A stretch of 45,252 nt of DNA. Origin: Nitrosomicrobium frigidum (SeqCode). Lineage in GTDB: Archaea > Thermoproteota > Nitrososphaeria > Nitrososphaerales > Nitrososphaeraceae. Position numbers and translations under genes: made by a program. A model generated the notes under the pieces. That model had not been told where the DNA came from, ran no database searches, and saw only the letters and a list, made by a program, of their open reading frames with translations. This document shows positions 4,647 to 36,154 of this stretch, piece by piece. Positions within the stretch are counted from its first letter, which is position 1. The number at the start of each line of letters is the position of its first letter. The stretch is from contig JAHEZK010000007.1 in NCBI GenBank assembly GCA_023251115.1, positions 10,689 to 55,940 of the forward strand. The letters run 5' to 3'.

Positions 4647-5459
4647 TTATACTTTAATGATATCTTTTCGAACTATCTGTATTCCCTCATTTTCCAGATT
4701 ACTTGCCAATGCATTTAGACCAATTGAGTCTCCGGCCAAGTGTCCTAATATTATCAGGCTGCCTTGAATTTTACTTTCATTTAGTTTTACCAAATCATTG
4801 TAGTCAATATGAAAGTAGAGAACCGTCGAGATTCCATTTTCAAAATAATTTTTTGCTATTTGAAATCCACCATTAGTACCTGCAGCTATTACCGCGACCC
4901 ACTTGCCTACATTAGAATTAGGCTGTCCGTATGAAACTTGAATCTTTGTTGCTGCATTTTTGAATTCTGGGATATCTTCTAAAGTTGTAACCAAGTCTGA
5001 CACTAGATTTGGATTTTCGTCTTGAATCTTTTGAGATATCACTCTCCTGGCATACTCATCGCATGGTTGATGAATGTTTACTAATGGCATGTTCAAAATC
5101 TTTGCAGAATCAATAACAGAGGAATAGATCTGAGTATGGTTCCTGAGTTCTATTCTCTTCTTTAGATCCAAAACAGATTTTTTTGCAATATTTTCAGGAA
5201 TGCCATTTTCTTTCATATAATCAATATGTCTATCAATAACTTTGTAAAAATTGATGGCAGTTACACCAATAGGATGATGGGTTACTACTGCATCACAGCC
5301 TAGATTCTTTGCTAGCATTAGATCTGCAGTTGTTACGTCTATCATTAACATTATCTTCTTAATGTTCCTACCATGAACGTGAACCGCAGTATCGGCAGGA
5401 ACTGAGTTCCATTGAACCATATCAAGTGATATTTCTAAAATCTCATTAGTATCTAACAT
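4647..5459 (-). CDS. Nif3-like dinuclear metal-centre protein
   Basis: A 270-residue NIF3 (GTP cyclohydrolase I type 2-like) family protein. Its molecular function is unsettled; members form toroidal hexamers with a two-metal site. THHPIG (CDAVVTHHPIG) is the family metal-binding motif near the N-terminus. GxxxGG-like and LGHLAGDSIGLNAL near the C-terminus complete the second half of the site. I start at ATG 5459 because a purine-rich AGAAGG-type ribosome-binding site precedes it. An upstream ATG at 5513 would add an 18-residue basic extension. The C-terminus lies about 50 bp from the tRNA-His gene on the same strand. Confidence 0.8.
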   Translation of the reverse strand: MLDTNEILEISLDMVQWNSVPADTAVHVHGRNIKKIMLMIDVTTADLMLAKNLGCDAVVTHHPIGVTAINFYKVIDRHIDYMKENGIPENIAKKSVLDLKKRIELRNHTQIYSSVIDSAKILNMPLVNIHQPCDEYARRVISQKIQDENPNLVSDLVTTLEDIPEFKNAATKIQVSYGQPNSNVGKWVAVIAAGTNGGFQIAKNYFENGISTVLYFHIDYNDLVKLNESKIQGSLIILGHLAGDSIGLNALASNLENEGIQIVRKDIIKV

Positions 5460-5664
5460 CTTGGATTTCCTTCTTTTTAGATTCATAATACTATAAAGAA
5501 GTTTTGGATTCACTAACTGAAGGAATTCAAATTAGTTTATAACCACAAATATTAGTTCTGAAAATGAATTTTGTTAAATGCATACCTTTCATAATTTTAT
5601 GACTAATTAAGATATAAGATTAATTTTAACATTTAAATGTCATTGTGCATTTCGTTTTTGTACT

Positions 5665-6705
5665 ATGAGTTGTTCTGACGAATATATATCACACACCGAC
5701 ACGCAGAATCTTATTCAAATTTCGCCACTAACAAAAGCCAAATTAAAGAAGGCTAAATATGGCGTTTACAATCATTCTGCAGTAGAACTCTGTCATTGGA
5801 CAAAAAAATCTTTCTCCAATGAAGGAACCTGCTACAAACACAAATTCTACGGTATTTCAACTCATAGATGCATGGAAATGACACCTACTGCAATGAACTG
5901 TGAAAACAGATGTATTTACTGTTGGCGGCCTACCGAATTTTATGATACGCTGGAAATGCCTGAACATTTGGTTGATGAACCGGATATGATAATTAATAAT
6001 TTACTGGAAGAACGTAGAAAACTCATCGTAGGACATTATGGTAACAAAAAAAGCGACAAATTAAAAATTGATGAATCTCTATTTCCGCAACATTACGCAA
6101 TATCACTATCTGGAGAACCTACTATGTATCCAAAATTACCGAGCCTTATCAAGTATCTTAAAACCATTAAGAATACAAAATCAATATTTTTGGTCACAAA
6201 TGGACAGGAACCAGAAATGCTCCAAAGATTGGTAGATGAACAAGCTCTGCCAACGCAGCTCTATCTATCTACCAATGCTTCAAATAAAAAAATGTATACA
6301 ATGGTGAACAGACCGAAATATATGGATGCATGGGACAGATGGCAAAAGAGTCTTGAATTGTTGTCGGAAATGGATACAAGAACAGTATTGAGAATGACTT
6401 TGATACGGAATTTTAACGATTCAACAAATTCCGTAAATGAATTTGCTGATCTAGTGAAAAGAGGTAATCCGCATTTCATTGAAATTAAATCGTATATGCA
6501 TATTGGAATGTCCACTCAAAGATTAGAGAGATCAGATATGTTGGAAATGGACGAAATAAGGGGCTATTCAGATTTAATGCGCAATAGTTTAGGCATATTC
6601 TCTATTATGGATGAAAGTGAAATTTCAAGAATAGTAGTTCTCCAAAATCTCAAGAGGTATACTGAAAGGTGGATTGAGGGGTATGAAAAGCCAATTATTC
6701 ATTGA
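5665..6705 (+). CDS. taw1: tRNA 4-demethylwyosine synthase (Taw1/TYW1)
   Basis: A radical-SAM enzyme of 346 residues that condenses pyruvate with N1-methylguanosine-37 of tRNA-Phe to form the wyosine tricycle. The radical-SAM cysteines are C79, C83 and C86 (CENRCIYC). The second Fe-S cluster is marked by C43, C56 and C69, spaced 13 and 13 as known for archaeal Taw1. SGEPTMYPKL and the later FIEIKSYMHIG motif are typical of the family. The ATG at 5665 follows an A/T-rich promoter-like stretch. It is monocistronic and convergent with the pyrophosphatase gene. Its presence implies wyosine-type modification, although no partner (Trm5, Taw2, Taw3) is in this window. Confidence 0.93.
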   Translation: MSCSDEYISHTDTQNLIQISPLTKAKLKKAKYGVYNHSAVELCHWTKKSFSNEGTCYKHKFYGISTHRCMEMTPTAMNCENRCIYCWRPTEFYDTLEMPEHLVDEPDMIINNLLEERRKLIVGHYGNKKSDKLKIDESLFPQHYAISLSGEPTMYPKLPSLIKYLKTIKNTKSIFLVTNGQEPEMLQRLVDEQALPTQLYLSTNASNKKMYTMVNRPKYMDAWDRWQKSLELLSEMDTRTVLRMTLIRNFNDSTNSVNEFADLVKRGNPHFIEIKSYMHIGMSTQRLERSDMLEMDEIRGYSDLMRNSLGIFSIMDESEISRIVVLQNLKRYTERWIEGYEKPIIH

Positions 6706-34353: not shown

Positions 34354-34443
34354 GAACCATTAGATTATCACTTCTTTCAAATCCCCCTCCCCATCTCACA
34401 GGAGCTTCCTTTGTTAAATATTCCAACACTCTAAAAAGAACTC

Positions 34444-35232
34444 ATGTCTCATCTTACTACATTTAATCAAAATGATTATGAACCAAAATTCCAAAATGCT
34501 TATGAATATCTTGATAATATTAAACTTGAAATTAGAGGATTAACGTCTGCAATAGAACTTGAAATTCACGATATTGTGTGTGTTGTAGGAATTTCAGAAC
34601 TTACAAATATACTTTTAACAAGAATTGGCGTATGTTGCTTACTTCCTAGAAGGTCTTGTGGTTTTATATCCAATTGTACATCTCATTCAAATGTATTAGT
34701 TATAGATGCAGGGAACAGCACAGATGTGTATCAATATGTAGAATTTGGACGACAGTATGGATTGAATACCAAACAAGTCTTACAAAGAGTAGTGGTAACA
34801 AGGGTTTTTACACTATATCAACTTGTACATTTAATAGTCTATAAGCTACCAAATATGATTCATAAATTCAATGCTAAATTAATATTAATTCCAGATTTGT
34901 TTGATATGTTTATTCAAGATGAAATCGATATCAAAGAAGCTAAATCATTAATAAAAGAAATTATGGATGCCATTTTGATATTATCTCGTAAAAATAATAT
35001 CTTATTTATAACTTCAATACTATTAAATAAACTTCTTTCTATTTCAGATTTATATTGCAATACGCTACTTCCTTTGTTTAATAAAAATATAGAAATTATT
35101 CAAAACAAATCCAGTGAGCGATTTAACGTGAAAATAAAGGAAAAATCCTGCAAATATGTTACTAATTGTGTTACCATTAATAGGAAATATCTAATATCCA
35201 AGAGCGACTTACTAATAGTTTCAAATAAGTAG
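34444..35232 (+). CDS. RecA/RadA-fold protein without a Walker A motif
   Basis: A 262-residue protein resembling archaeal RadA-family ATPase cores. VLVIDAGNSTDVYQYVEFGRQYGLNTKQVLQRVVVTRVFT (84-123) and the Walker B-like KLILIPDLFDMF (145-156) match the family pattern of strand, helix, strand. The region of the P-loop is IVCVVGISELTNILLTR (44-60) and has neither the GxxxxGK[ST] lysine nor the final Ser/Thr, so nucleotide hydrolysis is unlikely. VCCLLPRRSCG with three Cys follows. It may act as a structural RadA partner (compare RadB/Rad51 paralogues). Eight bp separate it from the next gene, so it begins a three-gene operon. ATG at 34444. Confidence 0.65.
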   Translation: MSHLTTFNQNDYEPKFQNAYEYLDNIKLEIRGLTSAIELEIHDIVCVVGISELTNILLTRIGVCCLLPRRSCGFISNCTSHSNVLVIDAGNSTDVYQYVEFGRQYGLNTKQVLQRVVVTRVFTLYQLVHLIVYKLPNMIHKFNAKLILIPDLFDMFIQDEIDIKEAKSLIKEIMDAILILSRKNNILFITSILLNKLLSISDLYCNTLLPLFNKNIEIIQNKSSERFNVKIKEKSCKYVTNCVTINRKYLISKSDLLIVSNK

Positions 35233-35240
35233 ATGATAAC

Positions 35241-35504
35241 ATGGGCAGAACAATTCCATCATTCAGAATCTCAAGTACAATTGAAGAGCGAAAATGGAAA
35301 CCATTCCGAAATCTCCTTGATAAAACAGACAAGAAGATATTTGATGAAATGTTTTCACTTACACGACTATATAATACTGCATCCTATCAATGTGTTAGAC
35401 CTGTCAGAATACAAGCTATTTTAATGTCCATTGTATTTCATAATTATAAAAAACTGTTTCAATTATCTAAATCCAATATAAAATTTGCAATGGATCTAAC
35501 TTAG
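35241..35504 (+). CDS. Small helical protein, first of two tandem paralogues
   Basis: An 87-residue, all-helical, basic protein (ATG 35241) opening MGRTIPSFRISSTIEERKWKPF. The core RNLLDKTDKKIFDEMFSLTRLYNTASYQ, then RPVRIQAILMSIVFHNYKKL aligns with the next gene. I recall archaeal proteins beginning MGRTVP-xFR with the same W-x-F-R-x2-L-x3-D spacing, but cannot verify them here. It follows the RecA-like gene by 8 bp, so the two are surely co-transcribed. Function unknown; a partner role for the RecA-like protein is inference. Confidence 0.65.
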   Translation: MGRTIPSFRISSTIEERKWKPFRNLLDKTDKKIFDEMFSLTRLYNTASYQCVRPVRIQAILMSIVFHNYKKLFQLSKSNIKFAMDLT

Positions 35505-35761
35505 TGATATATATGATCTTATTTCCAGAAGACGATATTCTAATACGAGAAATCGAATCATGGAAGGGTTTTGCTGACATGTTATATTCAGAGGACAGAA
35601 GATTATTTTTACAAATGTTAAATGACTGTCATAAATATAGTAATGCAATAAATGCCAAGGGAGAGCCATTCCCAGCTGAAGCTTTATTGATGACTCTGGT
35701 ATTCATACAACATAAAATAATTAATTGGTTAATAAAATATCAATATAAGAAATTAAAGTAA
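35504..35761 (+). CDS. Small helical protein, second of two tandem paralogues
   Basis: An 85-residue protein starting GTG 35504, which overlaps the TAG of the preceding gene by one base (TAGTG); ATG at 35513 is an alternative. It repeats the pattern of its neighbour: ESWKGFADMLYSEDRRLFLQML against ERKWKPFRNLLDKTDKKIFDEMF, and AEALLMTLVFIQHKIINWL against VRIQAILMSIVFHNYKKL. It lacks the MGRTIPSFR head, replaced by MIYMILFPEDD. Sequence similarity, the close spacing and lack of an own promoter suggest a tandem duplication inside the operon. Function unknown. Confidence 0.6.
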   Translation: MIYMILFPEDDILIREIESWKGFADMLYSEDRRLFLQMLNDCHKYSNAINAKGEPFPAEALLMTLVFIQHKIINWLIKYQYKKLK

Positions 35762-35902: not shown

Positions 35903-36154
35903 ATGGTGAGCATCAGTGTACTTTGGCGAGAGGCTTGGTTGAAACCTCTCTCGATCTACGATATTGGAACAAAAGTTTGCAAATTCTGTAACAGAAAGTT
36001 AAGAAATCAAGATTTTGTTACATCCTGTGAATTCTGCGAAATTGGCATTATGCATGACAATTGTGCCAATGAACACATCTTGAATAAACACAAGGCAGGG
36101 ATAAGGAAAAAAATAGAACTACACAAGGACAAACCGTTACATGATTTTCAGTAA
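35903..36154 (+). CDS. Treble-clef/C1-like zinc protein
   Basis: An 83-residue protein with KVCKFCNRKL, then TSCEFCEIGIMHDNCANEHILNKHKAG. The spacing C-x2-C ... C-x2-C ... H-x2-C ... H-x4-H gives ligands for two zinc ions in a cross-brace, RING- or C1-like arrangement. ATG at 35903. It is 142 bp from the RecA-like operon and separated by an inverted repeat (35854-35874), so it may be its own transcript. The role is unknown. Confidence 0.65.
   Translation: MVSISVLWREAWLKPLSIYDIGTKVCKFCNRKLRNQDFVTSCEFCEIGIMHDNCANEHILNKHKAGIRKKIELHKDKPLHDFQ

Follow-up and report, generated by a model that had tools for sequence, protein, structure and literature searches.

A detached iRadA-PPB2-PPB2' cassette in Nitrosomicrobium frigidum and its probable partnership with an unlinked PolB2 polymerase

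Gene Content of the Locus

The window, i.e., the whole stretch of 45,252 nucleotides that was analyzed, corresponds to G000:C26:10689-55940, where G000 is the genome of Nitrosomicrobium frigidum itself, while other G numbers denote genomes of relatives. Three genes follow each other on the forward strand. The first, at 34444-35232 (262 aa), encodes a protein of the RadA/Rad51 fold without Walker A, Walker B Asp, catalytic Glu and helix-hairpin-helix domain, here called iRadA. After a gap of 8 bp it is followed by PPB2 at 35241-35504 (87 aa), which bears an MGRT N-terminal arm (MGRTIPSFR), and by PPB2' at 35513-35761, a second copy without the MGRT arm and with an alternative GTG start at 35504. 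The initial annotation had given the same reading frames and the same 8-bp gap, and in these respects its three-gene layout stands. It had also placed the two small genes in a one-base overlap, which is doubtful, because the overlap needs the GTG at 35504, whereas the conserved start of the PPB2' family, M-x-LFPxDDI, is the ATG at 35513, located 8 bp past the stop of PPB2. The ATG is likewise the aligned PPB2' start in L002-L004. Judged from the sequence, the overlap is probably a start-codon artefact, and ATG 35513 is the likelier start.

Upstream of iRadA lies a putative promoter box (34384-34420, forward strand), recognized by its conservation in relatives. It is composed of a C/T-rich tract (CCCCTCCCCATCT), the element CACAGGAGCTTCC and a TATA-like TTAAATA at 34414-34420, and is placed approximately 25–30 bp before the iRadA ATG. 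Downstream of the cassette the window contains an 83-aa ORF and then a gene for a PKD protein. The 83-aa ORF (35903-36154) is cysteine-rich and is kept in L002 and L004; its zinc-finger matches are sub-threshold. Pfam matches to FidL-like and SecD/SecF families were below threshold as well and were judged to be chance.

A RadA/Rad51 Fold without ATPase Residues

A family HMM built from 36 relatives and compared with PDB chains matched Dmc1, RadA and Rad51 (best E 6.8e-12). Pfam Rad51 was matched by 31 of the 36 family members with a best E of 5.7e-16, while the window iRadA by itself gave a weak match that misses the cut-off (E 0.0088). The AlphaFold model of iRadA had a pLDDT of 86, and its nearest Foldseek neighbors were RAD51 structures and filaments (E ~1e-13), with RAD51 filaments and paralogue complexes as the best matches. 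The Walker A motif GxxxxGK[ST] was found in none of 59 iRadA homologues aligned to true RadA, and no homologue in this alignment has K at the Lys position of that motif, D at the Asp position of Walker B, or E at the position of the catalytic Glu. The proposal of a RecA-fold protein without a P-loop is thus borne out on both points for which contrary evidence had been looked for: no homologue with an intact Walker A turned up, and both the PDB profile matches and Foldseek lead to RadA/Rad51, not to a non-RecA fold.

With canonical RadA and RadB the protein shares, besides the fold, the xRAFTxYQL region, which aligns to ARAYT of RadA; the R-x-F-T of this strand region is invariant in the iRadA family. 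It differs from them in the loss of the ATPase residues and of the helix-hairpin-helix domain, as well as in having dedicated PPB2 partners. At 262 aa the protein lacks the N-terminal helical domain of RadA: in its model the core fold already starts near residue 19, and no helix-hairpin-helix Pfam match was obtained for the window iRadA. An N-terminal CxxC...CxxC zinc ribbon is present in 25 of the 59 homologues and is missing from the genus of the window. A strict regular expression for a PCNA-binding motif gave no match at the C-terminus of iRadA or PolB2 in the window and G000 proteins.

Purifying selection acts on iRadA, PPB2, PPB2' and PolB2, with dN/dS mostly between 0.09 and 0.29 and one pair at 0.40. 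The iRadA gene of G004 (L004:2165-2943 and L007) is interrupted by an in-frame TAA at about codon 231, beyond which the frame continues; either the gene was truncated recently or the sequence contains an error. In G095 an intact radA (GEFGSGKT; L060:4291-5292) is located 19 bp upstream of an iRadA-PPB2-PPB2'-PolB2 operon (iRadA at 5312-6328), and this adjacency may be a trace of a tandem duplication of radA from which iRadA arose. Almost every genome of the genus also has a second RadA paralogue whose P-loop is intact (L137, at G000:C74:75138-76085, and its orthologues); it shares about 50% identity with the RadA used as query and is without the promoter box.

Two Paralogous Small Proteins

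The two small proteins had been read as tandem paralogues, and this was confirmed by pairwise BLASTP (E 2e-8) and by profile-profile comparison (E 4.7e-16). The start MGRTxPSFR is found in nearly all upstream copies of the relatives, and M-G-R-T-x-P is invariant or nearly so across 14 relatives. MGRT is missing from all listed PPB2' homologues, so that exactly one of the two copies is armed. No Pfam model matched the PPB2 proteins. On the published MGRT motif, the small size and predicted helical nature and the position in the operon, we assign the product of 35241-35504 to PPB2/arCOG07300.

The neighborhood comparison found the small-protein family beside the RadA-like gene across the order. 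A member lies directly 3' of the iRadA gene, on the same strand, in 42 of 59 distinct homologues, while the remaining 17 are without an adjoining PPB2. The initial annotation had deduced the pairing with dedicated partners from gene spacing and overlap; the adjacency in 42 of 59, together with the purifying selection, argues that it is not due to chance.

PPB2 and PPB2' are fused into one protein of 168–213 aa in genera g2 and g11 (L066, L067, L070, L085, L047, and others), and the fusions in the two genera apparently arose independently. Structure prediction of a natural fusion gave an all-helical model of low confidence (pLDDT 48), too poor to use. Standalone MGRT-type PPB2 genes were also recorded, with up to approximately 10 copies or fragments per genome (G011, G033, G036, and others), and many of those in the genus of the window bear the promoter box. 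The standalone copies are possible interchangeable arm subunits.

PolB2 Is a Neighbor in Relatives and Unlinked in This Genome

A PolB2-type polymerase of approximately 750 aa, belonging to DNA polymerase family B, follows the module or is found near it in 27 of the 41 neighborhoods compared. In all 33 polymerases with a readable motif the first Asp of DxD is replaced by V or I (IVDS or IIDS), which is the published mark of most PolB2. No PolB2 or remnant of PolB2 was found beside the window cassette. The sole PolB2 of this genome is located at G000:C136:9680-11911; it is full-length, matches Pfam DNA_pol_B with E 7.8e-37, carries the motif IVDS and adjoins a pirin gene. The corresponding pirin gene lies next to an intact iRadA-PPB2-PPB2'-PolB2 operon in G003, G005, and G009. 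PolB2 is placed apart from the cassette also in G002, G004, G006, G008, G010, and G011. An assembly break does not account for the separation, since the window and its relatives have collinear sequences on either side of the cassette. A TFB-like gene lies near PolB2 in G000 (L096:8659-9597) and in G004 (L101:2332-3237), and it is a candidate regulator.

The missing polymerase at the site, together with the in-frame stop in iRadA of G004, could be read as signs of a decaying operon relic. Such decay is very improbable and is largely refuted already by the selection data: the frames are intact in the window, G006, and G010, dN/dS among them is 0.09–0.40 for all subunits, and the promoter is conserved.

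Two roles had been suggested for the trio in the initial annotation, a recombination mediator or a different nucleoprotein machine. As a mediator, iRadA with its small proteins would have canonical RadA filaments as its target instead of a polymerase, in the manner of Rad51 paralogues. The RadA/Rad51 fold, with RAD51 filaments and paralogue complexes as the best Foldseek matches, suits this role, and so do the presence of the promoter box before radA, the intact radA directly upstream of iRadA in the distant genome G095, and the lack of an adjacent polymerase in the genome of the window. The conserved neighbor, downstream of the module across families of the order, is nevertheless PolB2, and we therefore consider a mediator unlikely. 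Against it stands also the published modeling, in which iRadA, and not active RadA, accommodates PolB2 by means of a specific docking motif, and in which the MGRT arm is predicted to touch PolB2 and iRadA jointly (PMC11791011). The second suggestion comes nearer, because PolB2 neighbors the module in relatives and the three families are those of the published mutasome: PolB2 was described with an inactivated RadA and arCOG07300 by Makarova 2014 (PMC4104785), and Timinskas 2025 (PMC11791011) named the small protein PPB2.

We conclude that iRadA, PPB2 and PPB2' very probably serve as accessory subunits of a translesion polymerase, the PolB2 mutasome, with PolB2 supplied in trans and a common promoter box that may provide for joint induction. 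The likeness to the PolB2 mutasome comprises a catalytically dead RadA family member without the N-terminal helical domain, a small, apparently helical PPB2 with an MGRT arm, the duplication of PPB2 with one copy lacking MGRT, the order iRadA-PPB2-PPB2', the replaced first Asp of DxD in PolB2, and DUF72 genes near the module in relatives. The difference is that the accessory genes of the window are detached from PolB2 and reassorted, so that the adjacency found in relatives is absent here. In this way an operon that had no annotation, and that belongs to abundant soil ammonia oxidizers, would find its place in the archaeal mutagenesis machinery.

Reassortment of Cassette and Polymerase

The PolB2 sequences of G000, G004, G006, G008, G010, and G011 form one clade (support 100/100) with 85–90% identity between lineages. 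The iRadA sequences of the same six genomes fall into two groups, mutually about 40% identical, and a single iRadA clade for these genomes was rejected (AU p 0.00044). A similar picture was given by G003 and G010, whose RadA proteins are 97–99% identical, yet their PolB2 are 62% and their iRadA 38% identical. The iRadA and PolB2 trees are in conflict, and therefore the parts have been reassorted; as far as can be read from the sequences, cassette and polymerase are exchanged separately. Strict one-to-one co-inheritance of the partners fails on account of both this conflict and the unlinked PolB2. Nature has thereby supplied combinations of cassette and polymerase with which the need for matching subunits can be tested.

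One could imagine that the cassette has drifted, and in the lineage of the window serves another polymerase or some other partner and no longer PolB2. At least four close relatives have it away from PolB2, at a site that is new and collinear, and its iRadA is only about 40% identical to that of relatives whose PolB2 are 86–87% identical to the one in G000, as would be expected from such a drift. On the other hand, the promoter box is kept on both the cassette and PolB2, the MGRT arm is retained, all subunits are under purifying selection, and the three-gene order is kept as a unit. We find the drift improbable, and infer that the window cassette works with the PolB2 of G000. The common promoter box is the best evidence that the two are still expressed together.

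Proposed Assembly and Comparison with Known Systems

The geometry of the complex, the trimer, the translesion role and the damage induction in other archaea are taken from the literature. The modeled complex is a heteropentamer in which three PPB2 accompany a single PolB2 and a single iRadA, and in systems with duplicated PPB2 the MGRT is present in one copy only (PMC11791011). Applied to the genes of the window, iRadA would not hydrolyze ATP but would offer a RadA-like surface for docking of PolB2, so that PolB2 would take the place on iRadA of a neighboring RadA subunit in a filament. PPB2 and PPB2' would together build a helical trimer of mixed composition, in which only the product of 35241-35504 contributes an MGRT arm; this single arm would reach close to the DNA, in the cleft that PolB2 and iRadA leave between them. 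A pair of genes of which one is armed and one armless agrees with such a trimer. In the natural fusions armed and armless domains would be fixed at 1:1, a ratio that a 1:2 trimer would have to accommodate. The polymerase subunit would be supplied in trans from G000:C136:9680-11911. Through the common box before cassette and PolB2 the separated genes would be co-induced, most likely after DNA damage and along with radA.

In Sulfolobales PolB2 is damage-inducible and needed for targeted mutagenesis, and for the Dpo2 operon of Sulfolobus islandicus, too, the literature reports induction by damage and a part in targeted mutagenesis (PMC11791011). This operon comprises the same three protein families as the genes treated here, with a single PPB2 described there. 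In outline, the E. coli Pol V mutasome (UmuD'2C-RecA) is also alike, having a polymerase docked on a RecA-family protein and a small-subunit arm near the active site (PMC11791011); it differs in its Y-family polymerase, active RecA and unrelated small subunit, and thus belongs to another family. The core system is already known. Apparently new are the separation of the cassette from PolB2 and its reassortment, the fusions of PPB2 with PPB2' and, most of all, the box common to radA and PolB2. The main text of PMC11791011 makes no mention of a box common to PolB2, standalone PPB2 and radA, nor of PPB2-PPB2' fusions.

The Promoter Box and Its Distribution

In four relatives strong conservation is seen over the 60 bp that precede iRadA, but not over the remaining intergenic region. 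The layout of the box, a C/T-rich tract just upstream of a TATA-like element at fixed spacing, recurs before other iRadA operons of the genus, before iRadA operons of genus g12 and before standalone PPB2 genes. When the exact element of the window was scanned over 2.1 million positions of the DNA collected for comparison, the top matches other than orthologues preceded the unlinked PolB2 of close relatives. The box upstream of the unlinked PolB2 agrees with that of the window at 26 of 37 positions and has the same spacing to the TATA-like element; in the best pair, 31 of 37 positions agree.

A strict IUPAC pattern of the box was too rigid (0 matches, against 6 in the reversed control), and a profile model was used instead, with filters off, as default filters drop weak sites. 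The model was trained on iRadA and PPB2 promoters only, with radA and PolB2 held out. The held-out scan comprised 91 kb with 11 radA loci of congeners and 6 PolB2 loci, and gave full-length matches directly before nine of the radA genes; a full-length box preceded three of the PolB2 genes, and a partial one was seen in a fourth. Only short or sub-threshold matches, with a maximum of 7.8 bits, were obtained in a control scan of 72 kb from loci of other RadA paralogues and PolB1. The radA genes of the own genome (L122) and of G009 (L124) were below threshold in the model scan, and L122 scored 14.7 in a scan with a simple weight matrix. The reversed-sequence control of this matrix was noisy (88 matches over 10 bits, maximum 19.8), and for this reason only box sites that were held out and consistent among orthologues were relied on.

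Genome searches located further copies of the box upstream of radA in G022 and G039, which are complete genomes, and of a dprA-like gene in G014. These distributions suggest that the box may mark a small DNA-damage regulon in soil ammonia-oxidizing archaea. The box would then be a damage-response element; the link to damage draws on the member genes and on analogy with Sulfolobales. UV induction in Sulfolobus acidocaldarius is driven by a hexanucleotide, non-palindromic and placed upstream of the core promoter (PMC5817253); the box of the window is longer and C/T-rich. In the literature searched we found no description of a comparable damage-response element in archaea of the Nitrososphaeraceae type. 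It is quite possible, and we put it forward tentatively, that in Nitrososphaeraceae the box ties radA, PolB2, the detached iRadA-PPB2 cassette, many standalone PPB2 genes, the dprA-like gene and two uncharacterized small-protein families to one regulator. If so, mutasome subunits would be exchanged and co-regulated in trans instead of being held together in an operon, and the box could serve as a testable promoter code for the DNA-damage response in this group.

The box is not exclusive to repair genes, because it also precedes transposon-associated and uncharacterized genes. It was found just upstream of several IS605-type TnpB genes (G022, G039; L220-L222, L224, L225, L227, L228), and the IS605-type elements may have captured the box promoter. 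A coiled-coil-like family of 97–112 aa (KEIEESKTWLSREKEESTYKRDLKKRIELINWVLENM...) carries the box at L191:1196-1486 and in L184, L186, L189, and L195; it occurs in several genomes of the genus and was assigned to no Pfam family. The other box-bearing family consists of 77-aa zinc-finger genes (L176, at G000:C82 near 9842; L187, L192, and L113). One zinc-finger relative is located directly upstream of PolB2 in G041 (L113), and another 2 kb downstream of PolB2 in the genome of the window (L096:9784-10044).
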